Source: Roseiflexus sp. (GTDB taxonomy: Bacteria > Chloroflexota > Chloroflexia > Chloroflexales > Roseiflexaceae). Taken from it: 63,586 nucleotides of DNA. The stretch spans positions 1-63,586 of the forward strand of contig JANXAL010000105.1 in the NCBI GenBank assembly GCA_025062325.1, read 5' to 3'. The stretch's first letter is position 1. Each line of letters begins with the position of its first letter. Shown one piece after another: positions 4,289-30,020 of the stretch. The translations under genes and the position numbers were made by a program. A model generated the notes under the pieces. The model saw only the letters and a program-made list of their open reading frames with translations. It ran no database searches and was not told the origin of the DNA.

Positions 4289-4297
4289 CGCCTTGCT

Positions 4298-4915
4298 TCA
4301 CTCCGCGTCGAACACCTCATCGACGCTAACGGCAAAGCCGTCGAGCAGTCGGGAGGCTGCCTGTTCGCCGCGACGGAACGCGCCAAACGTCCGGTATGCG
4401 TCGTCCTCCAGAACCAGGACCGTGATCGTTTCGTCCAGCGGATTGACAATCCAGTACTCAGGAATCCCCGCCTGAGCGTAGTCACGCGGCTTCTCGACGG
4501 TATCACGCTCCGGATTATCGGGACTCACAATCTCAACAACGAGATCGGCGCCCAGCCAGAACTCGTTCTGGTTTCGCGGATCGCGGGCATCACAGAGGAG
4601 CAGAATATCCGGCTCACGGAAAGCGCCTGGACGCACCTGCAACCGTAAAGGGGCATAGAATACGGCGCCGCCCCTGGGTCGCACGAACGCGAGAAAAGCG
4701 AGCACGAGGAAGAGCGAAATCGCCTGATGCTTTCGCGTTGGCATGGGCAACACCTCGATCACGCCATCAGTAAACTCGATGAGATGATTGGTCTGCCGGG
4801 TGAGGGCGAGGTACTGCTCCACGCTCCAGAGACCCTGCAAGGCGTCCAGGTCGATATCAAGACCATCGGCAGCGCGCACCATACGAAGCTGACCTGTTGG
4901 TGTCGGGGCTGTCAT
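4298..4915 (-). CDS. Uma2 family (DUF820) putative endonuclease
   Basis: About 205 residues. The Uma2/DUF820 core is visible as FREPDILLLC, then LVVEIVSPDNPERDTVEKPRDY, then AGIPEYWIVNP, which carries the acidic residues and lysine of the PD-(D/E)XK nuclease fold. The family is strongly expanded in Chloroflexota and cyanobacteria; its biological role is not established. The start is placed at the ATG at 4915 (MTAPTPTGQL), with an AGAGATG stretch just upstream. An in-frame ATG at 4957 would add 14 residues. The gene converges on the thiolase gene with a nine-base gap. A broken paralogue lies at 1612-1760. Confidence 0.85.
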   Translation of the reverse strand: MTAPTPTGQLRMVRAADGLDIDLDALQGLWSVEQYLALTRQTNHLIEFTDGVIEVLPMPTRKHQAISLFLVLAFLAFVRPRGGAVFYAPLRLQVRPGAFREPDILLLCDARDPRNQNEFWLGADLVVEIVSPDNPERDTVEKPRDYAQAGIPEYWIVNPLDETITVLVLEDDAYRTFGAFRRGEQAASRLLDGFAVSVDEVFDAE

Positions 4916-4946
4916 AAGACATCTCTGCTGCTCAATCCTGAGCGCA

Positions 4947-4974
4947 TTGCTCTGCAATATAGTGGTAGTATAAT
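4947..4974 (+). promoter_or_regulatory. Probable promoter of ppc
   Basis: TTGCTC at 4947-4952 and a consensus TATAAT at 4969-4974 are separated by 16 bases. The predicted start near 4981 leaves a leader of about 170 bases before the PEP carboxylase gene. The leader contains a run of near repeats of GGTTCT/TTCTCGG at about 5109-5145. Confidence 0.5.
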
Positions 4975-5149
4975 CTGGCGTTCCAGACCATGCAAGGTAC
5001 GCAGAGCAGGCGCTGCCTCAAGCGGACAGGCGGACTGAGCGCGGGAAGCGGCATGCTTCTCAAACAGGTATACTGAACACGCTGGGCCCATGCGGCGATC
5101 AGCGCCTTCTTCGGTTCTTGGTTCTCGGTTCTCAGTTCTCTGCTCAACT

Positions 5150-7966: not shown

Positions 7967-7975
7967 GCGCAGAGA

Positions 7976-8022
7976 CGTTGCACGAGGTGAGACGTTGCGT
8001 TGCAACGTCTCAACCCGTGCAA
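7976..8022. repeat. GTTGC/GCAAC hairpin between convergent genes
   Basis: Inner arms GAGACGTTGC (7988-7997) and GCAACGTCTC (8001-8010) enclose three bases. Outer arms GTTGCACG (7976-7983) and CGTGCAAC (8015-8022) extend the stem across a poorly paired four-base segment. It lies between the ends of ppc and the minus-strand gene at 8049, where it could terminate both transcripts. There is no T-run, so that role is uncertain. Confidence 0.7.
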
Positions 8023-8048
8023 CATTGGCGGATGGCAGATTGCTCGCA

Positions 8049-8684
8049 TCACCAGACAATGATCGGGAGATCGTGCGCAACGCTTACATCGGCGGCTTCG
8101 CGCAGGACCCTTAGGCAACGACGAACCGGATGCCTGGGTTTCACGCCAGCCTGATCCAGCATTCCTTCCAGTTCGACCAGCTCACGCTGAAGCGCCACTG
8201 ACGAACCGAAACTGACGACCGACTCCTCAATTGGCGTGTCTTCCTCTTCTTCTGATTCTTCCTCAATCCAGATCGGCTCAGGAAAATCGGCTGGCAGGTA
8301 GTATCCACCCTCACCCTGATGCTTGATCAGATGGGGGAAGCGAGTTGGCTGTTTGTCCTCCCAGACGGCAGCTAGCAACGGGTCAGGCTCTTCATCGAAC
8401 TCGAAATTTGGCGCCAACAGCGGCTTGATGTCCCGACCGTTCTCCAGATAGATAGCGATGAGGCGCAGCAGGAGGAGATCGCGGTACCGTTCGATGCCGC
8501 CTTCCCAAATTTCAACGCCGGGATTCGCCAGGAGATCGACATCTACACCCTCCTCCCGTAGCAAGTCCTGCACCTTGATCAACCAGTCACGCTCCGACTC
8601 ATACTGCTCGCGGTCTTCTTCGGGAAGGGCGGTGAACATAGAACCGACGACAAGATCCAGCTCCGTTATTCCGTTGTCTGACAT
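8049..8684 (-). CDS. Acidic hypothetical protein
   Basis: A 211-residue protein I do not recognise. It is acidic, with a very acidic linker EEESEEEEDTP near the middle, flanked by a mostly helical N-terminal half (EEDREQYESERDWLIKVQDL) and a C-terminal half ending in VAHDLPIIVW. No signal peptide, membrane span or catalytic motif was seen. The start at ATG 8684 (MSDNGITELDL) is preceded by AAGGATG at about 12 bases; longer in-frame starts run into non-protein-like sequence. It converges on ppc. Confidence 0.7.
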   Translation of the reverse strand: MSDNGITELDLVVGSMFTALPEEDREQYESERDWLIKVQDLLREEGVDVDLLANPGVEIWEGGIERYRDLLLLRLIAIYLENGRDIKPLLAPNFEFDEEPDPLLAAVWEDKQPTRFPHLIKHQGEGGYYLPADFPEPIWIEEESEEEEDTPIEESVVSFGSSVALQRELVELEGMLDQAGVKPRHPVRRCLRVLREAADVSVAHDLPIIVW

Positions 8685-9017
8685 ACGTAGGCATCCTTCA
8701 CGATGGATATACTGTATTATGGAAGACGACGTATCCTGGCACATTTGCATTGTGCCGACGGATCCATCGATCTGACGGTCCTTACCCGGCATCCGAGCGC
8801 CAGTAAGCGTCGGCGCCTGCTCGTGTTTATTGCAGGTGCGTGAGGAGTATACCACATCTATCAGTTTCTGATCATTGACAGGGGATGCCTGTTTGACGTA
8901 TAGTGGTACAGTGTTGCAGCGCAACGCTCAATGGCGTCGCTAAGTGTCTAATCCTTCCTCAAGGCGTCCCCGCCGGGTTCCATACATTCCTGGCGACATT
9001 GTCGTGTGGAGGTTTGC
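8685..9017. other. Divergent intergenic region with an imperfect GTTGC/GCAAC palindrome
   Basis: These 333 bases separate the acidic hypothetical gene (minus) from the VanW-like gene (plus). The only structured element seen is AGTGTTGC (8910-8917), AGC, GCAACGCT (8921-8928), an imperfect member of the GTTGC/GCAAC family. No gene was found. Confidence 0.5.
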
Positions 9018-11048
9018 GTGTCGGCTGAACAGGTCCACTTCTCCTCAACGGCCGAGGCGGCAGAGCGCGAAGGCTTTCCAGTCCTGACACACGCGCGCGC
9101 GCGTCGGCCACGTCATCGCAAGGACGGATGGCTGTGGTTTGTGCTGGCACTCATCATACTCATCGTACTGGGTGGAGCAGGTGGCGCAGCATATCTCTAT
9201 CGGTCGTATGAAGGGCGGATCTACCCTAATGTATCGATTCAGGGCATTGCCGTTGGTGAGATGACGCCGGATCAGGCGGAAGCGGCGATACGGGCGCGCT
9301 ATGAGGCATTCCTCCGTCAACCAGTGGTCATCACCTACGGCGACCGTCAGTGGATGCCAACGCTGGACGATCTGGGAATCGCGTTCGACTTTCGTAGCGC
9401 GGTCAAGCAGGCCTACAATGTCGGGCGCGGCAGTGGGCTGATTAACAACATTCAAGAAATTGCGACAATCTGGCAGCATGGTTTCGAGGTGCCGCTGCAC
9501 GTCTCATACGATGAGACTCGCGCGCAGGCATATCTGGCGCAACTGGCGCGCGAAATTGAGCGCGCCCCCGTTGACGCCCAACTGCGCCTTGATGGTGAGC
9601 GAGTCGCAATTGTTGGCGCAGTCATTGGGCGGCAGGTGCTGGTCGATGCTACCCTAAAGCATCTGTCGCAGCAACTGCAAACCTTCGTACCTGCCACCAT
9701 TCCGCTCCAAACGCGCGAACTGCCGCCACGTCTCGACGATGCCGCCGTTGCTGCGGCGCGATCGCAGATCGAGACGATTCTGCAGGGTCCGCTTGTTCTG
9801 CATGTTGGAAACAGGAAGTACGAGTGGACGGTCGGCGATCTGGCAGACATGATCAGCATCAAGCGCATCCCCGCTGAGAAAGGCGACCAGATCGCAGTAA
9901 CGCTCGACCAGGGCGCCATTGAGCAACGCCTCCGTCAGATAGCCGAGGAAACTGAAAAACCTGGCACCCGTCCGCGTGTGGCATGGAACAACGGCAATCT
10001 CAAGATCATCAAACCTGGCAAACCAGGCCTTCGTCTCGATGAAGCGCGCGCCCGCGAGATGGTGCTTGCTGCACTTACCGGGCGTGATCGGGTCCTCGAG
10101 TTGCCAATGATTCCTACCGATCCGCCAATAACAGAGGCAAATCTCCACCAACTGGGCATTCGCGAATTGGTGAGCGTCGGCAAAAGCGATTTCACCGGCT
10201 CAGCACCCTATCGAGTTCATAACATCGGCGTCGGGATGCAATTGCTCAACGGATTGCTGATTGCCCCTGGCGAAGAGTTTTCGTTCAACAAGAACATCGG
10301 GCAGATCAATGCTGCCAATGGATTCGTCGAAGGCGCAGCGATCATTCAGAACCGGACGCAGCAGGAGTTTGGCGGCGGCATCTGTCAGGACTCGACCACG
10401 CTGTTCCGCGCCGCTTTCTGGGCCGGTTTGCCAATCACCGAGCGCTGGGGACATTCGTTCTATATCAGTTGGTACGACAAATATGGACTCGGTCCGCGCG
10501 GCAATGGTCCTGGTCTTGATGCAACAATCTTTACCGGCGGACCAGACCTGAAGTTTGTGAATGACACCGGAGCGTGGCTGTTGATCCAGGCATGGTCAGA
10601 TCCGAAAACTGGCGTGGCGCAGGTCGAGCTATATGGGACGAAGCCCAATCGCACGGTTGATCTGACTCACAAGGTCTACGATTATACGCCCGCTCCGAAA
10701 GAGCCAGTGTTCGTCGCTGATCCCAGAGTGCCGCCAGGGACCATTAAGCACACCGATAAGGCACGCGGCGGTATGACGATCGATATCTACCGGTTGGTGG
10801 TGGAGAATGGTGTGCCACGCCCACCCGAGTTATTCCGCACTCGCTTCCGACCGTGGCCCAATATCTATGCCCTGAACCCTGCCGACATCGGTCCAGACGG
10901 CAAGCCGCTCATCCCGTTCCCGCCTGTTGCACAACCAGCGCAATCCGCGCCGTCGCCAGCCGAACAACCTGCCCAACCGTCTCCGCCTCCAGGGGTTGAG
11001 CCTCAGCCTGCGCAGAACTCGGACGAACAGCCGCCAGCGAATGGATAA
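9018..11048 (+). CDS. VanW family protein, membrane-anchored
   Basis: About 676 residues. A short basic cytoplasmic segment (RARRPRHRKDGW) precedes one membrane span near residues 38-62, so the rest is probably outside the membrane. Two peptidoglycan-binding-4-like segments follow (GEMTPDQAEAAIRARYEAF and similar). The VanW domain near residues 400-530 holds GVGMQLLNGLLIAPGEEFSF and EFGGGICQDSTTLFRAAF, where many homologues have GGVCQVSTTLY. The tail is rich in Pro, Gln and Ala. The family's biochemical role is unsettled; a cell-surface role is likely. The start is the GTG at 9018 because GGAGG at 9008-9012 lies five bases ahead of it; an in-frame GTG at 9006 overlaps that ribosome site. Confidence 0.88.
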   Translation: MSAEQVHFSSTAEAAEREGFPVLTHARARRPRHRKDGWLWFVLALIILIVLGGAGGAAYLYRSYEGRIYPNVSIQGIAVGEMTPDQAEAAIRARYEAFLRQPVVITYGDRQWMPTLDDLGIAFDFRSAVKQAYNVGRGSGLINNIQEIATIWQHGFEVPLHVSYDETRAQAYLAQLAREIERAPVDAQLRLDGERVAIVGAVIGRQVLVDATLKHLSQQLQTFVPATIPLQTRELPPRLDDAAVAAARSQIETILQGPLVLHVGNRKYEWTVGDLADMISIKRIPAEKGDQIAVTLDQGAIEQRLRQIAEETEKPGTRPRVAWNNGNLKIIKPGKPGLRLDEARAREMVLAALTGRDRVLELPMIPTDPPITEANLHQLGIRELVSVGKSDFTGSAPYRVHNIGVGMQLLNGLLIAPGEEFSFNKNIGQINAANGFVEGAAIIQNRTQQEFGGGICQDSTTLFRAAFWAGLPITERWGHSFYISWYDKYGLGPRGNGPGLDATIFTGGPDLKFVNDTGAWLLIQAWSDPKTGVAQVELYGTKPNRTVDLTHKVYDYTPAPKEPVFVADPRVPPGTIKHTDKARGGMTIDIYRLVVENGVPRPPELFRTRFRPWPNIYALNPADIGPDGKPLIPFPPVAQPAQSAPSPAEQPAQPSPPPGVEPQPAQNSDEQPPANG

Positions 11049-11104
11049 ATAAGTAATGGATGAGACGGAAACGACATCCCGCAGGTGCAATGAAAAATGC
11101 GTTC

Positions 11105-11225
11105 GGTAAACCTGCGCCGCCAGGTCGCGCGCCCTCTGCGCTGCGGGCTAAGGCCCTTGCTCAGGACAGGAACCCACGGAGCTTGCACGATCTCAGCAAG
11201 CGCGCAGCGTCCCGGCAGTACTCGA
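11105..11225. repeat. Dispersed repeat, copy A
   Basis: The segment beginning GGTAAACCTGCGCCGCCAGG and containing GATCTCAGCAAG is clearly related to 47249-47355, which begins GGCAAACCCGTGCCGCCAAG and contains the same GATCTCAGCAAG. The copies differ by substitutions and small gaps. No coding capacity was found. It lies in the 239-base gap after the VanW-like gene, which holds nothing else recognisable. Confidence 0.5.
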
Positions 11226-11287
11226 CGTTTTTCCTCCAAAGAACCTGTAGGAGTATGCCATTGTCTGGCATCGAAGGTTGAAGAAGC

Positions 11288-11827
11288 TCACCGCGCTGCG
11301 CTGCCAGCTCGCCACCGCGCCACTGCCCATCCCATGCTTTCAGGCAGCGCGCTTACAGCCACGAGCTTTCCATCGCGCCAGGATGCGAGACCGGCGGCAA
11401 CCAGCCAAGCGGCAGCGGTATGCGCTCGCCGTCGCGCCGTGCTCGCTGCCAGCGGCGCTAGCCGGCGCAGCACAGCCGCGATACCGTCATAATCAAGGCC
11501 GCCGTGTTCACGCATGGCGCGCAGAACCGATCGCGTCGGCTCTTGCTCGCGCAGCAGGCGACGCAGTGCGGCGCCCTGCGCGAAACGATCATACTGCGCG
11601 AATGCGCGCCCGTAGGGCGTCAACGGAACAGTTCCGTCCTCCTCTGGCTCACCGACCAGACCGAGCACGCGCGCCGCCTGGGCATAGTACAGACCCTGCC
11701 GCTGCCCCTTCGCACCAAGATAAGCGCCGATCGCCTCATACGTGGTGTGCCCGCGCATAATAGCTTCTGGCACCCGTGCAACGTGCCACAGCACATCCGC
11801 CTGGGGAATGTCGCTCGTCGCCAGCAT
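11288..11827 (-). CDS. Hypothetical protein, possible winged-helix domain
   Basis: A 179-residue Ala/Arg-rich protein. Its first half, with HTTYEAIGAYLGAKGQRQGL followed by YYAQAARVLGLV, resembles the winged-helix modules that sit beside restriction or AAA-type proteins in some genomes (DUF7226-like). The second half (DYDGIAAVLRRLAPLAAST then AAWLVAAGLASW) looks like a second helical DNA-binding-type module. These readings rest on pattern only. No catalytic motif is present. The gene is divergent from the RuvC-like nuclease gene at 12008, with 180 bases between, so a shared control region is possible. Confidence 0.7.
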   Translation of the reverse strand: MLATSDIPQADVLWHVARVPEAIMRGHTTYEAIGAYLGAKGQRQGLYYAQAARVLGLVGEPEEDGTVPLTPYGRAFAQYDRFAQGAALRRLLREQEPTRSVLRAMREHGGLDYDGIAAVLRRLAPLAASTARRRAHTAAAWLVAAGLASWRDGKLVAVSALPESMGWAVARWRAGSAAR

Positions 11828-11995
11828 GGTCGCCTCTCGGAGGTGAGGGGGAATGGGTTAGGGGTTCCCTTCCACCTTTCTTTTCACCTGTAACCTCCGC
11901 CTTCGTTCCCCTCTCCCCTCTTACCTCAAGCCTCTTACCTCTTGTATACCACACCGGAACATGTGTGTCAAGATTCAATCGAACGAGATCTCGAC

Positions 11996-12001
11996 TATAA
12001 T
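11996..12001 (+). promoter_or_regulatory. -10 box placed for a leaderless transcript
   Basis: A perfect TATAAT ends six bases before the ATG at 12008, so transcription would begin at or next to the start codon. There is no ribosome binding site between them and no strong -35 box upstream. Confidence 0.5.
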
Positions 12002-12007
12002 GACGGT

Positions 12008-12475
12008 ATGCCCTCGTTGTTGGCCATTGATCTGGGATTGCGGACCGGCTTCGCCGTCTATGGCAGCGACGGCAGGTTGCGTCGCTACGGGTCGCACAAT
12101 TTTGGCACTGCGACTCGTCTGCGTCGTGGCGTTGCAAGTGTTCTGGCTGAGCCGACCGATCTGGAATGGATCTACATTGAGGGAGGCGGATCGCTAGCAG
12201 ACATCTGGACGCGCGAAGCCGAACGACGGAGCATTTCCGTCCGTCTGGTCAGCGCCGAGACCTGGCGGCGTGCGCTGTTGTACGAACGCGAGCAGCGCAA
12301 TGGCGATCAGGCGAAACGCATCGCTGATACGCTGGCGCGACGGGTGATCGCCTGGTCGGGTGCGCCACGCCCCACAGCCCTCCGCCACGACACGGCTGAG
12401 GCAATTATGCTTGGGCTATGGGGGGTCCTGGATGTGGGGTGGTTAGAACGCCTGCCTGAGAGCCTGCGTCACTAG
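12008..12475 (+). CDS. RuvC-like (RNase H fold) nuclease-type protein
   Basis: A 155-residue protein with the pattern of RuvC/RNase H-fold resolvases. Strand 1 is LLAIDLGLRTGFAVYG with D8 as the first metal ligand, E58 lies in WIYIEGGGS, and RHDTAEAIMLGLWG supplies D128 and E131 at the C-terminus. A basic helix with QAKRIADTLARRVI precedes the last acidic pair, as in RuvC-like enzymes. It is not ordinary RuvC or YqgF, and its substrate is unknown. The ATG at 12008 is chosen because the conserved first strand starts there and TATAAT lies just upstream; an upstream in-frame ATG at 11942 would precede the promoter. Endonuclease V follows 105 bases downstream, suggesting a repair context. Confidence 0.75.
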   Translation: MPSLLAIDLGLRTGFAVYGSDGRLRRYGSHNFGTATRLRRGVASVLAEPTDLEWIYIEGGGSLADIWTREAERRSISVRLVSAETWRRALLYEREQRNGDQAKRIADTLARRVIAWSGAPRPTALRHDTAEAIMLGLWGVLDVGWLERLPESLRH

Positions 12476-16654: not shown

Positions 16655-18910
16655 ATGAGCGCTCGCACGTCCCTTCGCCTATTATTTGTCTTTCTTGTGT
16701 GGCTTGGAACAGGCGTCATCAGTCCAGCCATCGCATACTATGCTCCATCCGGCGTAAGGGGCGCGGTCAGCGACGCTCCGGGCATGCCCGGAGCGTCCGC
16801 AATCCCCGACATTGATTGGGAACCGCTTGTTGAACCGCAGAGCAGCGGTGAGCAATGGACGAACCTTGGATCGCAACCCGATGGACCCCTCAATAATCGT
16901 GTTCGGGCAATCGGAGGAAGCGCAGGTCAGGTTTACGTCGGCGGGGAATTCACCGATGCCGGGGGCAACCCGAACGCCGATTACATTGCGCGCTGGGACG
17001 GCGCTGCGTGGCACGCCCTCGGAGGAGGATTGAATGGCCCTGTGTATGCAATTGCTGTCAGTGGAAGCGACGTCTATGTCGGCGGTGACTTTACTGATGC
17101 CGGGGGCAACCCGAACGCCGATTACATTGCGCGCTGGGACGGCGCTACGTGGCACGCCCTTGGAAGCGGCCTCAATCAGACTGTCTACGCGATTGCCGTG
17201 AGCGGAAACTCTGTGTATGTCGGCGGCGCGTTCCTCGGCGCGGGAGGCAACCTCAACGCCAGATACATCGCGCGCTGGGATAGAAGCGCCAATGTCTGGA
17301 GTCCTTTGGGGAACGGTCTGAGCGGGACGGTCTATGCCCTGGCAGTGAGCGGGAACGATATCTATGCCGGCGGCGCCTTCACCGATGCAGGAGGGTACGC
17401 AAACGCGGATTATATTGCACGATGGAACAGCGCCAGCAACACGTGGCACCATTTGGGGAATGGACCGACAGACGTCGTTTTAGCGATTGCCGTCGATGGG
17501 TCTTCCGTCTACGTTGGCGGCGCTTTCACCAGTGCGGGAGGCAACTCGAACGCCAGAAACATCGCACGCTGGAACAGTTCCACTAGTACGTGGCATTCTC
17601 TGGGAAGCGGAGTGAGTCAGTCAGTCAACGCAATAACCGTGAGCGGCGGCAGCGTGTATATCGGCGGCAATTTCACCAATGCTGGCGATAATGACGCCGC
17701 AGACCACATCGCACGCTGGAACGGGAGCGCCTGGCAGAGTCTGGGGAGCGGACTTCCGGGGGCAGTGTTCGCCATCTTTGTCGAGGGAGGCAGTGTGTAT
17801 GCTGGCGGCATCTTTACTGGCGTTGGCGGCGATGCGAACGCCAGCCGCATAGTGCGCTGGAATGGTTCGTCATGGCAGGCGCTGGGCAGCGGTCTCAATG
17901 GCGCGCTGCGATCTTCTGTAAGAGCCATCGCCGTAAGCGGCAATCAGGTGTATGTTGGCGGCGATTTTACCGGCGCTGGCGGTAATCCAAATGCGAACTA
18001 CGTTGCGCGCTGGGACGGCGCCTCATGGCAGGCGCTTGGCAACGGATTGAACGGAAAAGTTCATGCGATTGCCGTTAGCGGGAACAGCGTGTATGTCGGT
18101 GGAGAATTTACCGATGCCGGGGGCAACTCGAACGCCGATTACGTTGCGCGCTGGGACAGCGCCACAAATTCCTGGCACGCCCTTGGCAGCGGGCTGAACG
18201 GCATTGTCCGCACGATTGCCGTGAGCGGAAGCGATGTCTACGTGGGCGGCGACTTCACCAGCGCCAGCGGTGTTCCCCACACCGCCCGCATCGCGCGCTG
18301 GGCGGGCGGATCCTGGCATGCCCTTGGCAGCGGTCTCAATGGCGCCGCCAGAGCCATTGCCATCAGCGGAAACAGTGTATATGTCGGCGGAGATTTCACT
18401 AGCGCCGGAGGCAATGCGAGCGCCAGACACATTGCGCGCTGGGACGGCGCCTCATGGCACGCACTCGGCAGTCTCGAGGGACCAGTTCATGCCATTGCTA
18501 CCAGCGCTAATAGCATCTATGTCGGCGGCGCCTTTCCGGGTTTCGGGGGCAATCAAAACACGAGGCACATTGCGCGTTGGGATGGCTCCTCATGGCGCCC
18601 GCTCGGCGCCGGGCTGGATGGAATCGTCTACGCGATTGCCGTCAGCGGCGCACATGTCTACGCGGGCGGGATGTTCACCAATGCCGGAGAAAACGAAAGC
18701 GCCGATTACATCGCGCGCTGGAACGGATCGTCGTGGCAGGCTGTCGGTAACGGGGTGAACAACGCAGTCGCCGCCATAGCGGTTGACGGCGAACGCATGT
18801 ATGCGGGCGGCTCCTTCACCAATGCGGGCGGGAACGCTCTGGCCGATTATCTCGCAACGTGCATCTTACGCGGGTTGAACGGCGTATACCTGCCGCTCGT
18901 GGTGCGGTGA
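16655..18910 (+). CDS. Secreted protein with 14 beta-propeller-type repeats
   Basis: 751 residues with a signal peptide (LLFVFLVWLGTGVISPAIA). From about residue 84 there are 14 consecutive repeats of 45-50 residues. Each reads like AIAVSGSDVYVGGDFTDAGG, then about four variable residues, then YIARWDGATWHALGSGLN. This YVGG-F and ARWDG-W-LG pattern suggests four-stranded propeller blades; 14 blades would make two seven-bladed propellers. The protein ends in GVYLPLVVR, a tail I associate with exported Chloroflexota proteins. No enzymatic motif was found; a cell-surface adhesion or binding role is possible but unproven. Parts of repeats 1 and 2 are nearly identical at DNA level. The start has AAGGAGG six bases upstream. 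Confidence 0.88.
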   Translation: MSARTSLRLLFVFLVWLGTGVISPAIAYYAPSGVRGAVSDAPGMPGASAIPDIDWEPLVEPQSSGEQWTNLGSQPDGPLNNRVRAIGGSAGQVYVGGEFTDAGGNPNADYIARWDGAAWHALGGGLNGPVYAIAVSGSDVYVGGDFTDAGGNPNADYIARWDGATWHALGSGLNQTVYAIAVSGNSVYVGGAFLGAGGNLNARYIARWDRSANVWSPLGNGLSGTVYALAVSGNDIYAGGAFTDAGGYANADYIARWNSASNTWHHLGNGPTDVVLAIAVDGSSVYVGGAFTSAGGNSNARNIARWNSSTSTWHSLGSGVSQSVNAITVSGGSVYIGGNFTNAGDNDAADHIARWNGSAWQSLGSGLPGAVFAIFVEGGSVYAGGIFTGVGGDANASRIVRWNGSSWQALGSGLNGALRSSVRAIAVSGNQVYVGGDFTGAGGNPNANYVARWDGASWQALGNGLNGKVHAIAVSGNSVYVGGEFTDAGGNSNADYVARWDSATNSWHALGSGLNGIVRTIAVSGSDVYVGGDFTSASGVPHTARIARWAGGSWHALGSGLNGAARAIAISGNSVYVGGDFTSAGGNASARHIARWDGASWHALGSLEGPVHAIATSANSIYVGGAFPGFGGNQNTRHIARWDGSSWRPLGAGLDGIVYAIAVSGAHVYAGGMFTNAGENESADYIARWNGSSWQAVGNGVNNAVAAIAVDGERMYAGGSFTNAGGNALADYLATCILRGLNGVYLPLVVR

Positions 18911-22525: not shown

Positions 22526-22612
22526 GGTGAACCCGGCTTTCCTGTAGATTGCTGAACAAACAGCTTGCACCATTGTAGTCAGTCATGAGGAGATGTCAAA
22601 ACAAAACCGGCA

Positions 22613-22621
22613 TGCTATACT
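22613..22621 (+). promoter_or_regulatory. Extended -10 promoter of the phospho-signalling cassette
   Basis: TGC followed directly by TATACT (22616-22621) is an extended -10 element; the -35 region is weak. Transcription would start near 22628, which excludes the ATG at 22612 and supports a TTG start at 22657. Confidence 0.5.
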
Positions 22622-22656: not shown

Positions 22657-23979
22657 TTGAACCCGCATTGTCCATTCTGCAGCGCAACTGTTACGCCGCG
22701 ATCCCGGTTTTGCCCGACATGCGGGCAGGCGTTGTCGCAGTCGCCGCCTCGCTTCTCCGCATCGTCGCCGATAGCTTCTGGCGATCCGCCCATCGAAGGA
22801 GCGCTAACGAACGCTAAGCGTTTGCAGGTTCGCGGCAATGCGCTCGATCTGCGCGACCTGATAAACGTGGTAGAATCGAGCGTACAGTGGTGGCAGCGCG
22901 GACTGAGCAGCGGCGATGCAGTCACCCGCGATCAGGCAGCGCGCGCCATCGATGAACTCTCGCAGATCATGCGCAGCCTCTCGCAGCAACTGGCGCAGGG
23001 GCGCACAACCATCTGCATAACCAGGAGGCTGCCTGCGCTGCGCACGTTCGATGTCGCCTGTCCATCGTGCGGCAGCGGCAATCGAGCTCATGCACGTTTT
23101 TGCCAGCGATGCGGCGCGTTGCTGAATGCCGCGCCACGTTACGGAGTCGGGTCTGTGCGATCACGCGCTCTCAAGTTCCGCATCGCCGCGCGCACTGATA
23201 CCGGGCGAGTGCGCCAGCAGAATCAGGACGCAGTATACGCCGGTGAGATCGATCTGCCTGGTCGGCAGAAAGCATACCTTTGTCTGGTCGCCGATGGCAT
23301 GGGGGGGGCGGCGGCGGGGGAGTACGCCAGTCGTCTTGCGGCTGACGTGAGCCGCACCTACTTGGAGCGGGAGTCGGTCAGCCACCCGCCGCTGACCGAT
23401 GAGGCATGGCAGAATCTATTGCGCGACGCTGTGCGCGCCGCCAACCGCCAGATCTACGATACGGCGCGCGTCGATGCGACGCGCCGCGGCATGGGAACAA
23501 CACTCACAATCGCGCTACTCGTCGGCGACCGGTTGCATATCGCGTCGGTCGGCGACTCCCGCGCGTACCTGCTGAATCTAAACGGCGTCACTGACGACGG
23601 GGCGCTATCGGCGCAGTTGACGTCCGACCACAGTCTAGTGGCCCGCCTGGTTGATATTGGGCAATTGACGCCAGAGCAGGCGCGCACTCATCCGCAGCGC
23701 AACATTCTCTATCGCTCAATAGGAACCGATCCGTCAGTTGATGTCGATACGCGCTCGGAGGCGCTCGAGCCGGGCGACATCGTGCTGCTCTGCTCCGATG
23801 GATTGGTCAATCACGTCAACGACGAGGAAATCGTCCAGATTGCGTTTGACGAACCCGACCCCGACCGTGCCGTGACACGCATGGTCAACTTGGCGAACGA
23901 ACGCGGCGGGCGGGACAATATCAGCGTGGTGATGGTCCGTGTCGAAGGTGGAAGGAATGAGGAACGGGAACACGGTTAG
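22657..23979 (+). CDS. PP2C-type Ser/Thr protein phosphatase with zinc ribbons
   Basis: About 440 residues. The N-terminus has a zinc ribbon (CPFC...CPTC), a helical middle, and a second ribbon (CPSCGSGNRAHARFCQRCG). A complete PPM/PP2C domain follows. Its metal-binding motifs are visible: RTDTGRVRQQNQDAV, LVADGMGGAAAGEYAS, GMGTTLTIALL, SVGDSRAYLL, LLCSDGLVN and GGRDNISVVMV. It should remove phosphate from Ser/Thr residues, most simply those placed by the kinase encoded at 25802. The TTG at 22657 is taken as start because GGAGGGA sits just ahead and the promoter -10 box overlaps the upstream ATG at 22612. It is the first gene of the cassette. Confidence 0.88.
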   Translation: MNPHCPFCSATVTPRSRFCPTCGQALSQSPPRFSASSPIASGDPPIEGALTNAKRLQVRGNALDLRDLINVVESSVQWWQRGLSSGDAVTRDQAARAIDELSQIMRSLSQQLAQGRTTICITRRLPALRTFDVACPSCGSGNRAHARFCQRCGALLNAAPRYGVGSVRSRALKFRIAARTDTGRVRQQNQDAVYAGEIDLPGRQKAYLCLVADGMGGAAAGEYASRLAADVSRTYLERESVSHPPLTDEAWQNLLRDAVRAANRQIYDTARVDATRRGMGTTLTIALLVGDRLHIASVGDSRAYLLNLNGVTDDGALSAQLTSDHSLVARLVDIGQLTPEQARTHPQRNILYRSIGTDPSVDVDTRSEALEPGDIVLLCSDGLVNHVNDEEIVQIAFDEPDPDRAVTRMVNLANERGGRDNISVVMVRVEGGRNEEREHG

Positions 23980-23999
23980 CACTCTACGGTAGCGAAGCA

Positions 24000-25799
24000 A
24001 TGCCTGTCATCTGCACGTCATGCGGCGCATGCAACCGTGACAATGCACGATTCTGTCAGTCCTGCGCTCAACCGCTCGCTTCTGATCGTCCATCGTCCGA
24101 TGATCAAACCTGGCTGGCGGCGCAATTGCTCGCCAACCCTGCCACTACTCCCAAGGCTGTATCCGCAGCGCCTGAACATCCAGCGCTGCTCCCTGGGACG
24201 CTGGCAGTTGCTGCACCAACGGCTGCGCCGCTCATGCGTTTCGATGAGGAGTCTGTCATGGATGCCCCGCCTGCTGCGCTAGAAACGCCGTCGCTGTTTG
24301 CAGGTCGCTACGAAATCGTTGCCACGTCTGGCGATATGGTTGAAGCGATTGATCGCCAACCGTGGCGACGGTGCTGGTCGTGCAACACGACGCTTAACGA
24401 CGCCGGGGAAGCGTTCTGCACCCAGTGTGGCGCAGCGCTCGATGATCGTCGCTACCGGGGCCAGATCACGACTGGTGCGCCAATCGGTCTAGCGCTTGTC
24501 CCGCATATCGCCGATCCCGCTGCTCTCGCCTTTCTGCCTCCGATCTGGGACCAAGTGAGTGACGGGGATCGGACTCTGACGCTCACTCCGGCAACGAATC
24601 CGCCAACGCCGCTCACTCTTCCGCTCAGCGAACTCGAAGCCCTTTTCATCGGGCGCGATCTGGCGCATCTGTTGACTCTGCTGCATAACCAGGGGTTTGC
24701 GCTTGGCGCCGTCGAGCCGGACGATCTGGACATCACGCCAGCCCGCGCGACGCGCTTGCGGCATGTGCGTCATTTGCACCGGGCTGATGGGGAAGACGTC
24801 ACAACCGATCTGTTCCATCTCGCAGTGCTGCTTGAGGCGTTGACGGCGACCCCACGGACCACCAGGCGCCTTGATGAGGAAGAGGTTGCACTGGATGCCG
24901 CACCGACCCTCGCAGATATCTTGCGCGAAATCCGTACTGGTCGTCTGACGAATTCCATCGAACTGGAACAGCGGTTCGACTTTCTGATTGCGTACCACAC
25001 GGCCCCGGCGCCACTGCGCGTGCGATTTGGCGCCGCCACCGACACCGGCGTGGTGCGCGATCTGAACGAAGACAGTTTGCTGGCGCTTGATCTGCGCCTG
25101 ATTCGCCGCAACCAACCGCGCACATGGAGCCTGTTCATCGTCGCTGATGGGATGGGAGGGCATAGCGCAGGCGAGGTGGCGTCGGACCTAGCGCTGCGCG
25201 GCGCACTGGAAATCGTGCAGCGCGAGTATCTGGCGCCGACGGTGGACGCCGATGCGCAGGATCGGGAGGAAACGCTCCGCGAGGTCGTGCGTCGCGCTAT
25301 GTTTCAGGCAAATGAATACGTCGTGCGCGAAGCGCGCAATCGCGGGAATGACATGGGCACGACCATGACGCTGGCGCTGGTTGCCGGTGATCGCGCTGTG
25401 ATCGGCAACGTCGGCGACAGCCGAACATATCTTTTGCGAGAGGGGAAACTCCGGCGCGTCACCCGCGACCATTCGCTGGTGCAGCGCCTGGTCGATCTTG
25501 GACAGATTACGCCTGACGAGGTCTATACCCACCCGCAGCGCAACGCCGTCCTCCGTTCGTTAGGGGATAAACTCGACATCGAGGTTGATGTTTTTGTCGA
25601 ACGACTGCGTCCGGGGGATGCGCTGCTGCTAGCAAGCGACGGATTGTGGGAAATGGTGCGCGATGAGCAAATGGCGGAAATCATCGCTGCACACCCCGAT
25701 GATCCACAGGCGGCGTGCATGGCGTTGATTGACGCAGCCAATGCCGCTGGCGGCGATGATAATATCACAGTCATTCTGGCGTTCTTCGAGTCGTACTGA
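24000..25799 (+). CDS. Zinc-ribbon, pseudokinase-like and PP2C phosphatase fusion
   Basis: 599 residues. It starts with a zinc ribbon (CTSCGACNRDNARFCQSC), has a second one near residue 123 (CWSCNTTLNDAGEAFCTQCG), then a region of about 190 residues that looks like a degraded kinase C-lobe. There, LAHLLTLLHNQGFALGAVEP and TTDLFHLAVLLEAL keep the helix E and helix F spacing, but no HRD or DFG motif remains. From about residue 340 an intact PP2C domain follows: ATDTGVVRDLNEDS, VADGMGGHSAGEVAS, MGTTMTLALV, NVGDSRTYLL, LLASDGLWE, GGDDNITVIL. The phosphatase should be active; the pseudokinase part is inference. It ends two bases before the kinase gene. Confidence 0.87.
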   Translation: MPVICTSCGACNRDNARFCQSCAQPLASDRPSSDDQTWLAAQLLANPATTPKAVSAAPEHPALLPGTLAVAAPTAAPLMRFDEESVMDAPPAALETPSLFAGRYEIVATSGDMVEAIDRQPWRRCWSCNTTLNDAGEAFCTQCGAALDDRRYRGQITTGAPIGLALVPHIADPAALAFLPPIWDQVSDGDRTLTLTPATNPPTPLTLPLSELEALFIGRDLAHLLTLLHNQGFALGAVEPDDLDITPARATRLRHVRHLHRADGEDVTTDLFHLAVLLEALTATPRTTRRLDEEEVALDAAPTLADILREIRTGRLTNSIELEQRFDFLIAYHTAPAPLRVRFGAATDTGVVRDLNEDSLLALDLRLIRRNQPRTWSLFIVADGMGGHSAGEVASDLALRGALEIVQREYLAPTVDADAQDREETLREVVRRAMFQANEYVVREARNRGNDMGTTMTLALVAGDRAVIGNVGDSRTYLLREGKLRRVTRDHSLVQRLVDLGQITPDEVYTHPQRNAVLRSLGDKLDIEVDVFVERLRPGDALLLASDGLWEMVRDEQMAEIIAAHPDDPQAACMALIDAANAAGGDDNITVILAFFESY

Positions 25800-25801
25800 A
25801 T

Positions 25802-27178
25802 ATGCAATGTCCTGTCTGCAACGCGCTCAACCCCGACGGCGCTCCGTTCTGCGCCGAATGCGGGATTCGACTGGCAGGCGCGGCAATGCCGTCGGTCGCG
25901 ATGGCAACCGGCGCTCTGCCGCAGCAGTTCATCTTGCAGGGGCGCTACGTCATCGAGCAAAAACTGGGGCAGGGCGGGATGGGCGCCGTCTACCGCGCGC
26001 GCGATCTGCGCCTCAGTACGGTCACCTGGGCAATCAAAGAGATGAGCCAGGCGCAGATCACCGGACCGCTGGAGCTGCAAGAGGCGCGGGCCGCGTTCCA
26101 GCGCGAAGCTGAATTGCTCGCCAGTCTCTCGCATCCGGGATTGCCGAAGGTCGTCGATCACTTTGAACAGGACGGCAAGGCATATCTAGTCATGGAATTC
26201 GTCCCTGGAGATTCGCTCCTGACCATTGCGCAACGTGAAGGTCTCCCATTTCCATTGCCGCGCGTGCTCGATTGGGCGCGCCAGATCTGCGAGGTGCTGG
26301 AGTATCTCCACAACCGACCGACTCCCATCATTTTCCGCGATCTGAAACCGGCCAACGTCATGCTAACGCCCGAAGGGCGCATCAAACTGGTCGACTTTGG
26401 CATTGCACGCATTTTCAAACCTGGCAAGGAACGCGATACGCAGGCATTCGGCACCTTGGGATACAGCGCGCCTGAACAGTACGGACGGAGCCAGACCGAT
26501 CCGCGCGCCGACATCTATTCGCTTGGCGTGCTGCTGCATCAACTCTTAACCGGCTACGATCCGACAAGCACTCCGTTTCGGTTGCCGTCTGCCAACCAGA
26601 TCAACCCCGCCATCCCGCAGCATGTTTCAGATGCGATTGCACGCGCTGTCGATCCCGATCCGAACAGGCGCTTCCCTAATGTGCGCGCCTTCTACCAGGC
26701 ATTGACAGGTCAGCAGCAGATTATGCTCCAGGCTGGCACCCCGACCGAGGCAGTGTACCCCAGAATGTCCGTCTCAGGTTCGGTTGGGCAAACGATGCCG
26801 ATCTCGCCGCCCATCTCTGGCAGTGTGGCAGCGCAACCGCCTCCTGTGCCACTGCCAACCACTGGTCTTGCAAACGCTGGGCGATGGATCGGGATTGGCA
26901 GCATGCTCGTCATGGGGTTTGCCGCGATCCTCGTCGCCATCAGCGCTGCCACGACCGGTACCGACAGCGAACTGGCTGGCGTTGGCTATCTGATCGCATT
27001 TCTGCCCCTCGCTACCGGACCGCTTGCCTTTCTGCTCGGCTTGATTGCGCTGCTCTCGTCCGCGACGCAACAGACGGTCAGAGGGCGACAGCACGCCATC
27101 GTGGGCATCGTGACCGGGCTGATGACTGGACTCTTGTGCTGCGGCATCTTTGTTCTGGTGGGAGGGTCGAGCAGTTAG
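25802..27178 (+). CDS. Ser/Thr protein kinase with zinc ribbon and membrane anchor
   Basis: 458 residues. A zinc ribbon (C3, C6, C17, C20) is followed by a full protein kinase domain. The glycine loop is KLGQGGMGAVYRARD and the lysine strand is WAIKEM. The catalytic loop IIFRDLKPANVML has Phe instead of His in HRD, DFGIAR is the metal-binding motif, and GTLGYSAPEQYG is the activation segment end. After a Ser/Pro/Thr linker, three hydrophobic segments (about residues 363-388, 396-424 and 430-455) anchor it in the membrane. The kinase therefore faces the cytoplasm from the N-terminal side, not the usual extracellular-sensor layout. The start follows the phosphatase stop by two bases, so the genes are translationally close. 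Confidence 0.92.
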   Translation: MQCPVCNALNPDGAPFCAECGIRLAGAAMPSVAMATGALPQQFILQGRYVIEQKLGQGGMGAVYRARDLRLSTVTWAIKEMSQAQITGPLELQEARAAFQREAELLASLSHPGLPKVVDHFEQDGKAYLVMEFVPGDSLLTIAQREGLPFPLPRVLDWARQICEVLEYLHNRPTPIIFRDLKPANVMLTPEGRIKLVDFGIARIFKPGKERDTQAFGTLGYSAPEQYGRSQTDPRADIYSLGVLLHQLLTGYDPTSTPFRLPSANQINPAIPQHVSDAIARAVDPDPNRRFPNVRAFYQALTGQQQIMLQAGTPTEAVYPRMSVSGSVGQTMPISPPISGSVAAQPPPVPLPTTGLANAGRWIGIGSMLVMGFAAILVAISAATTGTDSELAGVGYLIAFLPLATGPLAFLLGLIALLSSATQQTVRGRQHAIVGIVTGLMTGLLCCGIFVLVGGSSS

Positions 27179-27263
27179 GATTTTGAAAGGGACGACGAAG
27201 CGCAACGATTCGCTGGCATACGGCGTCTAAACGTACAGTGAATAATCCGCTAAGGAGAGCATT

Positions 27264-28502
27264 ATGCATGCAGAGGTCACGCTAACGTGTACGTGGGGAC
27301 GTGCGCCGCTGGTCGCCAGCGCATCGCCGCAGGTGGCGTATCTGCTCGTAGAAGCGCAGGCGTCGGCAGTCGCCGAAAAAGCGCCGCTCAATTTCTGCCT
27401 GGTACTTGATCGATCCGGCTCAATGCAGGGCGCGAAACTGGCAGCGCTGAAGGAGGCGACCAAACGGGTCATCGATACGCTGACGCCACAGGATATCGTT
27501 TCGATTGTCCTCTTCGACGACACGGTGCAAACGCTCGTACCCGCGACGTTCGCCATCGACCGTGATGCGCTCAAGGCGCAGGTTGACGCCATCGAGGAAG
27601 CCGGCGGCACTGCCATGTCGGGCGGAATGGCGGCTGGTATTGTGGAACTGCGTAAGAACCACGACCCCGGGCGGGTTGGCGCCATGCTGCTGTTGACCGA
27701 CGGGCAAACGTGGGGCGATGAGGATCGCTGCCGTGCGCTGGCGCAGGAATTGGCCCGTGACAACGTGCGGGTGACGGCGCTTGGTCTTGGTGCGGAGTGG
27801 AATGAAAAGTTGCTCGATGACATTGCCGATGCGACGGGCGGGCTGTCGGATTATATTGCGGATCCGGCGCAGATCACAACGTTCTTCCAGCGTGCGGTGC
27901 GCACGGCGCAGGGCACAATAGCGCAGGATGCGCGTTTGCTGCTGCGGTTGGTGCGCGATGCAACGCCACGCGCCGTATATCGCGCCAGTCCGATCATTGC
28001 CAACCTTGGCTATCAGCCAATTGGCGACAGCGAGATTGCAGTGCGGTTAGGCGCTCTTGAGACCGATATGCCGTCGAGCGTTATTATCGACATGATGGTT
28101 CCGGCGCGCGGCGCGGGAAGGTTCCGGGTCGCCCAGGCCGAACTCCATTACACGCCGATTGGCGGATCGGAGCAGGTGATGAAGCAGGACGTACTCCTCG
28201 AGTTTGTCACCGATCCGGCGAAGGCGGCATATGATCCGCGCGTGATGAACCTGGTCGAAAAAGTGACAGCGTTCAAACTCCAGACGCGCGCGCTTGCCGA
28301 GGCCGAGGCGGGCAATTTGTCGGGCGCCACCCAGAAACTGCGCGCCGCAGCGACGCGATTGCTCGATCTGGGAGAACTCGAACTGGCGCAAAAGGTCGCC
28401 GAGCAGGCCGAGCAACTCGATCAGGGCCAGACGATGAGCGCCGAACGCCAGAAAGAACTACGCTACGCGACCCGTCGCCTGACGCAAAAACTAGAGGAAT
28501 AG
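27264..28502 (+). CDS. von Willebrand factor A domain protein
   Basis: 412 residues. A vWA domain spans about residues 40-210, with an intact metal-ion-dependent adhesion site: DRSGSMQGAKL, then the threonine region GGTAMSGGMAAGI and LLTDGQTWGDEDR. A beta-rich middle part and a helical C-terminus (AEAGNLSGATQKLRAAATRL) follow, as in other bacterial vWA proteins of this type. No signal peptide was seen, so it is probably cytoplasmic and could be a substrate or scaffold of the adjacent kinase. AAGGAGAG lies upstream of the ATG. It is the only cassette member without a zinc ribbon. Confidence 0.9.
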   Translation: MHAEVTLTCTWGRAPLVASASPQVAYLLVEAQASAVAEKAPLNFCLVLDRSGSMQGAKLAALKEATKRVIDTLTPQDIVSIVLFDDTVQTLVPATFAIDRDALKAQVDAIEEAGGTAMSGGMAAGIVELRKNHDPGRVGAMLLLTDGQTWGDEDRCRALAQELARDNVRVTALGLGAEWNEKLLDDIADATGGLSDYIADPAQITTFFQRAVRTAQGTIAQDARLLLRLVRDATPRAVYRASPIIANLGYQPIGDSEIAVRLGALETDMPSSVIIDMMVPARGAGRFRVAQAELHYTPIGGSEQVMKQDVLLEFVTDPAKAAYDPRVMNLVEKVTAFKLQTRALAEAEAGNLSGATQKLRAAATRLLDLGELELAQKVAEQAEQLDQGQTMSAERQKELRYATRRLTQKLEE

Positions 28503-28529
28503 CCTCTTGAAGCATGCGGAGGATTGGGA

Positions 28530-30020
28530 ATGATTAAGTGTCCAACGTGCGGCGCGCTCAATGAAGCGGTGAATCGTTTCTGTGAGCAGTGCGGCGCACG
28601 ACTCGAACCAAGCGGTCCAGTTCAATCTGTATCCGTTCCACCGCCCGTCACCATCTCTCAGACCTGCCCAAAGTGCGGCGTTCCCGTGCTTCCCGGTCAG
28701 GCATTCTGTGAAGAGTGCGGCGCCGCCCTGACAGCCGTCGCACCGCCTTCCAGCGTAGGCGCACCATCGGTCAGCGTTGATGCGCCGACCATAGTGGCGC
28801 CAGCGCCCGCAATGCCGGTCGCGGGCGCGATCTGCCCTGCATGCGGGCATCAGACGATGCCTGGTGATCGGTTCTGCGATGCGTGCGGCGCCGCCCTTGC
28901 ACCTGCACCATCTCCGTCCATTGCCGACGTACCCACCGCTGCGCCGCCTGAGCCGCCATTGGCTGCTCCCGAGTCTCTAGCAGCTCATCCGGCGCCTGTT
29001 GAACCGACCATGCCAACGCTGATCGAGACGGCGCCTCCGCCAGTCCCGCCTGCTGCATCAGCAGCGCCGGTTGAAACAACCGCGCCGCCACCCGTAACGC
29101 CCATAACTGACGCGCAGGCGGAGTATGAAGCGAAACGCCAGGCGCTGCTCGACGAAATTGCCCGGCAGGATCAGATTATCGCCCAACTTGAGCAAATGCG
29201 GGCGACGTTTGGCGCAGCGACGCCCCCCGCCATCACCCTGGCGCTCGATGAAGCGCGTGGGGCGCGCGCGAAGGCGCAGTCGGAACTCGACGCGCTGCAA
29301 CCGCCGCCGCCGCCCGTTGATCCGGCGGTTGTTGCTGCGCTCAACGATGAGATTGCCCGCCAGCAACAGATTATCGCCCAACTTGAGCAAATGCGGGCGA
29401 CGTTTGGCGCAGCGACGCCCCCCGCCATCACCCTGGCGCTCGATGAAGCGCGTAGTGCGCTGGCGAAAGCGCAGGCGGAGCTGGCAGCGCTTGGCGTTGC
29501 CGCGCCCGCTGCTGAAGCGCCAGCTCCTGCACCGCCGCCTGCTCCGGTTGTCGCTGAACCCGTTGCGCCGCCAGTCGCACGTGCGGTCGAACCGGCTGCG
29601 CCGCTGCCTTTGACCGCACCGGCGACGCCCGATATGGCAGTGACGGTGACTGCACCACCCGAAGAGTTTCCATCAGCCGCAACTGTGCTGGCGCCGCCGG
29701 TCGGTCCGCGCCTGGTGTTCGAGAACGGACAGGAGATTCCCGTTCCGACGGATAAGGCAGAGATTACCATCGGACGTGAAGATCCGATCAGCGGCATTCA
29801 CCCGGATATCGACCTGACGCCATATGGCGGCGAAAGCGGTGGTGTGAGCCGTCAGCACGCGCGCCTGATCCACAGGGGCGGACAGTGGTCCATCGTTGAT
29901 CTAGGCAGTACGAACTACACTAGGGTCGATGGTCTGCGGATCGAGCCAGGTGCGCCGCATCCGTTGAAAGATGGCGCACGCCTGCAATTTGGGCGCCTGG
30001 CGGTGACGTTCAGGGTGTGA
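28530..30020 (+). CDS. FHA domain protein with three zinc ribbons
   Basis: 496 residues. Three zinc ribbons occupy the first 120 residues: CPTCGALNEAVNRFCEQCG, CPKCGVPVLPGQAFCEECG and CPACGHQTMPGDRFCDACG. A Pro/Ala-rich linker leads to two nearly identical helical repeats containing RQDQIIAQLEQMRATFGAAT or its copy. After another Pro/Ala linker, the C-terminal 90 residues are an FHA domain with TIGRE, VSRQHARLIH and DLGSTNYTRVDG, the phosphothreonine-binding signature. It should read phosphorylation made by the cassette kinase. ATG 28530 has GGAGGA upstream; the TTG at 28524 is less likely. It is the last gene of the unit. Confidence 0.92.
   Translation: MIKCPTCGALNEAVNRFCEQCGARLEPSGPVQSVSVPPPVTISQTCPKCGVPVLPGQAFCEECGAALTAVAPPSSVGAPSVSVDAPTIVAPAPAMPVAGAICPACGHQTMPGDRFCDACGAALAPAPSPSIADVPTAAPPEPPLAAPESLAAHPAPVEPTMPTLIETAPPPVPPAASAAPVETTAPPPVTPITDAQAEYEAKRQALLDEIARQDQIIAQLEQMRATFGAATPPAITLALDEARGARAKAQSELDALQPPPPPVDPAVVAALNDEIARQQQIIAQLEQMRATFGAATPPAITLALDEARSALAKAQAELAALGVAAPAAEAPAPAPPPAPVVAEPVAPPVARAVEPAAPLPLTAPATPDMAVTVTAPPEEFPSAATVLAPPVGPRLVFENGQEIPVPTDKAEITIGREDPISGIHPDIDLTPYGGESGGVSRQHARLIHRGGQWSIVDLGSTNYTRVDGLRIEPGAPHPLKDGARLQFGRLAVTFRV

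Follow-up and report, generated by a model that had tools for sequence, protein, structure and literature searches.

Gene content of the cassette

The window analysed here, a stretch of 63,586 nt, is a whole contig of a Roseiflexus-type genome with a total size of 4.73 Mb. Roseiflexus sp. SKYG45 is the nearest named record, with a vWA protein 96% identical to that of the window (among the best 80 of 386 relatives). Five consecutive ORFs on the + strand at 22657–30020, referred to here as PP2C_A, PP2C_B, KIN, VWA and FHA, are separated by gaps of 20, 2, 85 and 21 nt, the last lying between the VWA and FHA genes (Table 1). Their Pfam and NCBIfam domains agree with a preliminary description of the locus, made from the sequence, as two PP2C phosphatases, a membrane kinase, a vWA protein and an FHA protein encoded on the same strand. 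The best start of PP2C_A is a TTG at 22657 preceded by GGAGGG (an alternative ATG lies at 22585), and that of the FHA gene is the ATG at 28530. Terminator-like sites were not more frequent than in shuffled sequence. The five genes would form one transcription unit, read as a single transcript.

Table 1. Features of the cassette in the window, with the basis of assignment where one is given.
Feature	Position	Strand	Basis
Promoter-like site ATGTCA-17-TATACT, 5' of the first gene	22593..22621	+	consensus scan only
PP2C_A: Stp1/IreP-type PP2C with two zinc ribbons and a helical stretch	22657..23979	+	
PP2C_A zinc ribbon 1	22666..22734	+	24.5 bits, just below Pfam cut-off
PP2C_A zinc ribbon 2	23059..23118	+	profile match, spacing
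PP2C_B: zinc ribbon, pseudokinase with second ribbon in N-lobe, Stp1/IreP-type PP2C	24000..25799	+	
PP2C_B zinc ribbon 1	24012..24077	+	24.1 bits, just below Pfam cut-off
PP2C_B pseudokinase region, no HRD, no DFG	24288..25004	+	hhalign
PP2C_B zinc ribbon 2, within pseudokinase	24372..24440	+	
KIN: active-looking Hanks kinase with a zinc ribbon at the N-terminus and about four hydrophobic segments at the C-terminus	25802..27178	+	
KIN zinc ribbon	25808..25864	+	
VWA: ArnB-like three-domain protein, no ribbon, proposed hub/substrate	27264..28502	+	
VWA four-helix C-terminal bundle, residues 325-407	28236..28484	+	model
T-R-R-L motif (T403-L406), last VWA helix, proposed phospho-acceptor	28470..28481	+	conservation
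FHA protein: FHA domain at the C-terminus, preceded by three zinc ribbons and two coiled-coil-like repeats; proposed ArnA-like reader	28530..30020	+	
FHA protein zinc ribbon 1	28536..28604	+	
FHA protein zinc ribbon 2	28665..28730	+	
FHA protein zinc ribbon 3	28833..28898	+	
FHA domain	29763..29993	+	Pfam

Both phosphatases scored above the curated cut-off of 230 bits for the Stp1/IreP family NF033484 (248.7 and 235.1 bits) and keep the metal-binding motifs. The kinase-like domain of PP2C_B, which lacks the HRD and DFG residues and has a ribbon inserted in its N-lobe, matched kinases in hhalign profile-profile comparison with a probability of 99.3% (E 2e-20), and the PP2C, vWA and FHA controls all stayed below 3%. 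Judged by these profiles the pseudokinase is real, and the fusion suggested in the preliminary description is borne out; the same domain arrangement is kept at other loci. The call depends on hhalign, since Foldseek with the PP2C_B model gave PP2C chains only among the 50 matches listed. KIN is a StkP/PknB-like kinase in which the GxGGxG, AIK, RDLKPxN, DFG and APE motifs are all present, and the FHA domain of the last protein has intact R, SxxH and GSTN motifs. PASTA domains were absent from the Pfam matches of the cassette proteins.

The eight zinc ribbons, already counted in the preliminary description as one to three on each of four proteins, are distributed as two, two, one, none and three in gene order. 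Seven of them have an inner spacing of 10 residues and the eighth has 11. With a Pfam cut-off of 25 for the ribbon, two of the eight score under it and one passes only together with its neighbours. The whole 4.73-Mb genome gave 24 ribbon matches, eight of which fall inside the 7.4 kb of the cassette; an even spread would give ∼0.04 per 7.4 kb.

Two other assignments were considered and rejected. As an antiphage system, the cassette gave only generic PADLOC matches for the kinase and weak matches of the PP2Cs to one candidate-system PP2C model (33–38.5 bits), and PADLOC returned no match for the vWA or FHA protein. As part of the threonine-phosphorylation pathway of type VI secretion (FHA protein TagH), it reached 32 bits with TIGR03354 against a cut-off of 120.25.

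Conservation of gene order and of the vWA/ribbon-FHA pair

A VWA ortholog of at least 56% identity was found in 26 of 40 genomes of the order, and 23 of these 26 loci were examined (all but G028, G037 and G039). In families f1 and f4 (16 loci) the order PP2C_A-PP2C_B-KIN-VWA-FHA is complete in 10, the window included, cut by a contig end in four and kinase-less in two. The set is thus conserved beyond this genome, and the PP2C-pseudokinase fusion and the triple-ribbon FHA protein, which the preliminary description took for additions to a known triad, are conserved with the rest. The genes flanking the cassette in the window are common to its few closest relatives only.

The seven loci of families f2 and f3 keep PP2C_B-VWA without an adjoining kinase or FHA gene, and in six of the seven one or two further vWA genes lie beside the pair. 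The FHA ortholog of f2, f3 and genus g8 occupies a separate site, with a PP2C gene directly 5' of it at seven of the nine second-site loci fetched; one locus (L173) has the order PP2C_A-kinase-FHA, and at another (L174) the contig starts just before FHA. Genus g8 retains the PP2C-FHA pair without a close vWA gene. Because the PP2C_B-vWA and PP2C(-kinase)-FHA sites are separate in f2 and f3, the cassette resembles two half-modules that occur together or apart.

The genome of the window encodes a second, leaner cassette in the order kinase-PP2C-vWA-FHA (L060) and a vWA paralogue adjoining a kinase-FHA fusion (L059). The FHA protein of the leaner cassette is its only ribbon carrier; its kinase and PP2C have none, and such modules therefore do not need ribbons on the kinase and phosphatase. 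ABC-2 exporters with a ribbon and an FHA domain, checked against Pfam, adjoin the cassettes at three loci (L051, L110 and L111), and FHA ORFs of similar length occur at other loci. In the genome of the window such an exporter lies on another contig, near a ribbon kinase (L160). We regard the exporters near related cassettes as the best lead to the controlled process.

Scanning a collection of species genomes gave 386 relatives, and the best 80 were kept. Of the 78 vWA ORFs in this set that are followed by 400 nt or more of sequence, 38 have an FHA gene directly behind them: 29/50 in Chloroflexota, 4/13 in Cyanobacteria and 3/11 in Armatimonadota or unclassified genomes, with single cases in Nitrospiria (1/1), a deltaproteobacterial MAG (1/1), a Gracilibacteria MAG (0/1) and Cohnella (0/1), where the taxon labels of MAGs may be wrong. 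The taxonomic spread is that of a sample biased to close relatives, since the best 80 of 386 were used. All 38 directly following FHA proteins in this set carry a ribbon. With the order-level loci included and identical sequences counted once, the figure became 52/52, compared with 27/51 for the other FHA proteins in those loci, and the ribbons of the directly following proteins have CxxC-x10-CxxC spacing in 109 of 109. The vWA gene and the ribbon-FHA gene are a recurring pair across phyla. A bacterial ribbon-FHA protein is known in FraH of Anabaena. We found no description of a bacterial vWA/ribbon-FHA operon in the literature covered (open-licence PMC papers).

Fold and C-terminal tail of the vWA protein

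The structure model of VWA (pLDDT 92.3) shows a beta-sandwich interrupted by the vWA domain, in which the MIDAS motifs are present, followed by four helices (residues 325–348, 352–368, 372–386 and 393–407). In structure comparison it aligned with Sulfolobus ArnB (8S05) at Z 32.9 and rmsd 4.3 over 370 residues and with the ArnB paralogue 5A8J (ArnE/vWA2) at Z 27.4. The best match was a Catenulispora vWA protein, 4FX5 (Z 39.0 over 394 residues); inter-alpha-inhibitor came after these three (Z 25.7), and the further matches listed align fewer than 200 residues. The family sequence profile also placed 4FX5 on top, with 8S05 at 9e-24 and 5A8J at 5e-14. The modelled fold is ArnB-like. It does not by itself prove an ArnB role, because 4FX5 outranks ArnB and E. 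coli YfbK, which the vWA-family HMM scores at 137 bits, belongs to the same fold family. The Pfam matches at E ≤ 0.1 included none to ArnB_C (IPR040929), a model that may be missing from the set used.

According to the available parts of the ArnAB study, the unphosphorylated ArnA ribbon, with zinc ligands C21, C24, C35 and C38, binds the beta-sandwich and helical bundle of ArnB; ArnC phosphorylates ArnB at T353, T363 and T375 first, and the FHA domain binds afterwards (PMC12852372). The paralogue ArnE is without two of these threonines and is described there as not binding ArnA. In extracts of another study, removal of the bundle abolished phosphorylation of ArnB and strongly reduced binding, and the phosphopeptides included RMELIETTRR, ISESIETTRR and IGTVEQTR (PMC6509490). 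The region of VWA that corresponds to the first ArnA-ribbon loop of ArnB has a conservation of 0.54, and that of the second ribbon site 0.74, vs. 0.59 overall; the second site alone is specially conserved, which counts against full correspondence with ArnB docking.

VWA ends in K-E-L-R-Y-A-T-R-R-L-T-Q-K-L-E-E, with T403 within the last predicted helix. Among 31 Chloroflexota sequences T403 is kept in 28, R404 in 29 and L406 in 27, and the conservation of these residues is 0.87–0.92 vs. 0.56 for the preceding spacer. Selection for the residue at +3 is common among FHA domains. The conservation of T-R-R-L is compatible with phosphorylation of the bundle and binding of the FHA domain; given its predicted helical setting, T403 may instead have a structural role. 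The structural alignment ends at residue 409 in VWA and 382 in ArnB, which places T403 close to ArnB T375, at a precision that does not fix the exact pairing.

We also compared tails with gene order, in four tail groups drawn up after the tails had been inspected (3 of 114 match no group). An FHA gene lies directly behind 42 of 64 vWA genes with a T-R-x-L tail and behind 0 of 20 with a K-T-V-R-L tail, although the latter figure represents few events, since the K-T-V-R-L tails come essentially from a single clade. In Cyanobacteria and Armatimonadota the tails are of other kinds (KTRIxSKT, EKTLMGT), equally fixed inside their own groups. The motif T[RK]x[LIMV] occurred 298 times in vWA proteins vs. 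93 in shuffles, a figure inflated by relatedness. At the same loci it was unenriched in kinases (0.95), FHA proteins (0.70) and other ORFs (0.90), and slightly enriched in PP2Cs (1.25). The tail split recalls ArnB and ArnE, the latter reported in the part available as not binding ArnA (PMC12852372); this parallel is weakened by S. islandicus, where, in the parts available, DNA damage is reported to be followed by binding of ArnE to ArnA (PMC10470591).

A candidate phospho-switch and its alternatives

We consider the cassette to be, probably, a bacterial phospho-switch of the ArnA-ArnB type, with VWA as hub and substrate, KIN as writer, the PP2Cs as erasers and FHA as reader. When no phosphate is present, the ribbons of the partner proteins would dock weakly on the beta-sandwich and helical bundle of VWA. 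KIN would phosphorylate threonines of the C-terminal helices, most likely T403 and perhaps T407, and the FHA domain would then bind the phosphothreonine, with Leu at +3, and lock the complex. The two PP2Cs would take the phosphate off VWA, the pseudokinase of PP2C_B being a likely regulatory or docking part.

The preliminary description proposed that the shared ribbons gather the set on one partner, perhaps a nucleic acid or a ribosome-associated factor. The gathering idea fits; by analogy with ArnA the partner is likelier to be the ribbon-free VWA. Writer, erasers and reader all carry ribbons and the proposed hub alone does not, which suggests that the ribbons dock on it. This is weakened by the ribbon-free kinase and PP2C of L060 and by a vWA ORF that bears ribbons (L110:408); L099, a further exception, encodes an FHA-vWA-ribbon protein. 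Zinc ribbons often bind nucleic acid, and a reading in which they recruit the set to nucleic acid or ribosomes also finds a parallel in S. islandicus, where ArnA-ArnB is reported, in the parts available, to bind promoter DNA (PMC10470591). For S. acidocaldarius, the portion available of the ArnAB study has the ArnA ribbon binding ArnB and its authors finding no hint of direct DNA binding (PMC12852372). With every cassette protein ribboned except the proposed hub, we hold recruitment to nucleic acid or ribosomes to be improbable.

The cassette could also be an ordinary kinase/PP2C/FHA pathway, in which the partner read by FHA is the kinase, or else a protein outside the cassette (a ribbon-FHA ABC exporter, for example), VWA is a mere scaffold and the T-R-R-L helix is structural. 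Canonical Stp1-type PP2Cs and a StkP/PknB-like kinase would suit it, as would the PP2C-FHA pair standing alone in g8 and the ribbon-FHA-ABC-2 exporters beside some cassettes. The recurrence of the vWA/ribbon-FHA pair across phyla argues against it, as does ArnB, the closest relative with a known role, which is itself a substrate in the published portions seen; we rate it unlikely. Least credible is the TerY-P triad (YegI/YegK/YegL), to which the preliminary description had matched the kinase/PP2C/vWA core; on this view the cassette would be an expanded form of the triad, a metal-sensing phospho-switch tied to stress or defence. Three domain classes (kinase, PP2C and vWA) and the ribbons are shared with TerY-P. 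Close homology is lacking: the vWA HMM gave E. coli YegL 17.6 bits vs. 137 for YfbK, the PP2C HMM gave PphC (yegK) 14 bits, and the YegI-kinase score was 26.9 bits. TerY-P in the available part of its description combines a TerY-like vWA protein with a kinase whose ribbon is C-terminal, and an FHA partner is no part of it (PMC11090510). The KIN ribbon is at the other end (residues 3–20), with the hydrophobic segments C-terminal, and VWA has a beta-sandwich and helical bundle. We rejected the triad, which we now regard as highly improbable.

A switch of the favoured ArnA-ArnB type would name substrate, writer, erasers and reader in one unit, predict a phospho-site and give the ribbons a job. 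The wiring of common bacterial kinases, PP2Cs, FHA and vWA proteins is mostly unmapped, and the cassette offers one case. It also suggests that bacteria possess counterparts of a switch studied in a single archaeal lineage. Bacterial proteins with the architecture of ArnB are listed by the ArnAB authors, who, in the part available, call most such proteins uninvolved in multi-phosphorylation processes (PMC12852372); the vWA/ribbon-FHA pairs suggest the opposite for this subgroup. Tentatively, and with rather more reserve, we extend this to the idea that the ArnA-ArnB switch is a widespread bacterial module, often with its own kinase and PP2C, and that copies of the ribbon were added to the kinase and phosphatases in Chloroflexales as docking tags, letting writer, erasers and reader bind a single vWA hub that has no ribbon. 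The bacterial spread in that case covers Chloroflexota, Cyanobacteria, Armatimonadota-type and other MAGs; ArnA-ArnB has so far come from motility and DNA-damage control in Sulfolobus.

Comparison with known systems

VWA resembles ArnB of Sulfolobus acidocaldarius (Saci_1210/Saci_1211 module) in the split beta-sandwich, the vWA domain and the C-terminal four-helix bundle, which carries threonine-arginine motifs in both. The FHA protein resembles ArnA in combining an N-terminal CxxC-x10-CxxC ribbon with a C-terminal FHA domain, and the two genes are adjacent, as the consecutive locus tags indicate for ArnA and ArnB. A Ser/Thr kinase and a phosphatase are at hand in both systems; those of ArnAB act on ArnB, and those of the cassette would act on VWA. 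In ArnAB the kinases are ArnC and ArnD and the phosphatase is a PP2A, whereas the cassette has its kinase and two phosphatases inside the same unit, the latter of PP2C type. The cassette differs further in the three ribbons of its FHA protein, in the ribbons on kinase and phosphatases, and in being bacterial, with no indicated link to motility. Because the phosphatase type differs and binding is predicted by analogy, we describe it as related to, or working like, ArnAB and not as a strict member.

The likeness to the Catenulispora acidiphila protein 4FX5 is one of fold. Pathways with an Stp1/IreP PP2C, a PknB/StkP-type kinase and an FHA reader share enzyme families with the cassette; they differ in the PASTA domains, none of which were listed here, and in the vWA hub and ribbons added in the cassette. 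Compared with TerY-P, the vWA protein is three-domain instead of TerY-like and both phosphatases are of the Stp1/IreP type instead of PphC-like.

Paralogous cassettes and other ribbon-rich loci

The genome from which the window comes (G000) also contains a kinase-PP2C-vWA-FHA cassette paralogous to the main one, in which a short FHA protein is the sole ribbon-bearing member. Cassettes of this type are present in further genomes too (L063, L068, and L070). Another contig encodes a vWA paralogue with a K-T-V-R-L tail, and its neighbour is a divergent ribbon kinase-FHA fusion. The same genome has a second ribbon-rich cluster, and it encodes an SPFH/Band 7 protein whose C-terminus carries a pair of zinc ribbons.

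Coordinates of the features described in this part
Feature	Locus	Position	Size
Paralogous cassette	L060 (G000:C93)	6495-11418	
vWA paralogue and neighbouring kinase-FHA fusion	L059 (G000:C36)	9687-12466	
Second ribbon-rich cluster	L160 (G000:C29)	4217-11743	
Ribbon kinase	L160	within 4217-11743	607 aa
Two ribbon ORFs	L160	within 4217-11743	203 and 156 aa
Ribbon-FHA-ABC-2 exporter	L160	within 4217-11743	917 aa
SPFH/Band 7 protein	L163 (G000:C61)	4886-5965	
vWA ORF with ribbons	L110	408-1706	
FHA-vWA-ribbon fusion	L099	4779-7091	
vWA ORF, Chloroflexus islandicus	L085	9995-11191	
FHA gene direct repeats (n = 2, 88% identity)	window	29142-29491	155 nt each
Predicted repeat protein	window	16655-18910	751 aa

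vWA exceptions and the T-R/K-x-L motif

Exceptions to the ribbon-free vWA protein were an ORF bearing ribbons at its end (L110) and the fusion at L099. The C. islandicus vWA ORF as read stops short of the tail motif, reflecting either a frameshift or real loss of the motif. PP2C-pseudokinase proteins outside the Chloroflexales (L097, L111, L114, and L121) carry T-R/K-x-L in the linker preceding the pseudokinase, where it resembles the vWA tails; this linker motif is possibly a second FHA ligand.

Repeats within the window

The direct repeats in the FHA gene of the main cassette give rise to coiled-coil-like segments in the protein; the length of the whole protein differs between relatives. Elsewhere, a predicted protein is built from many repeats of the type VYVGGxFTxAGGN...IARWDG..WHALG.
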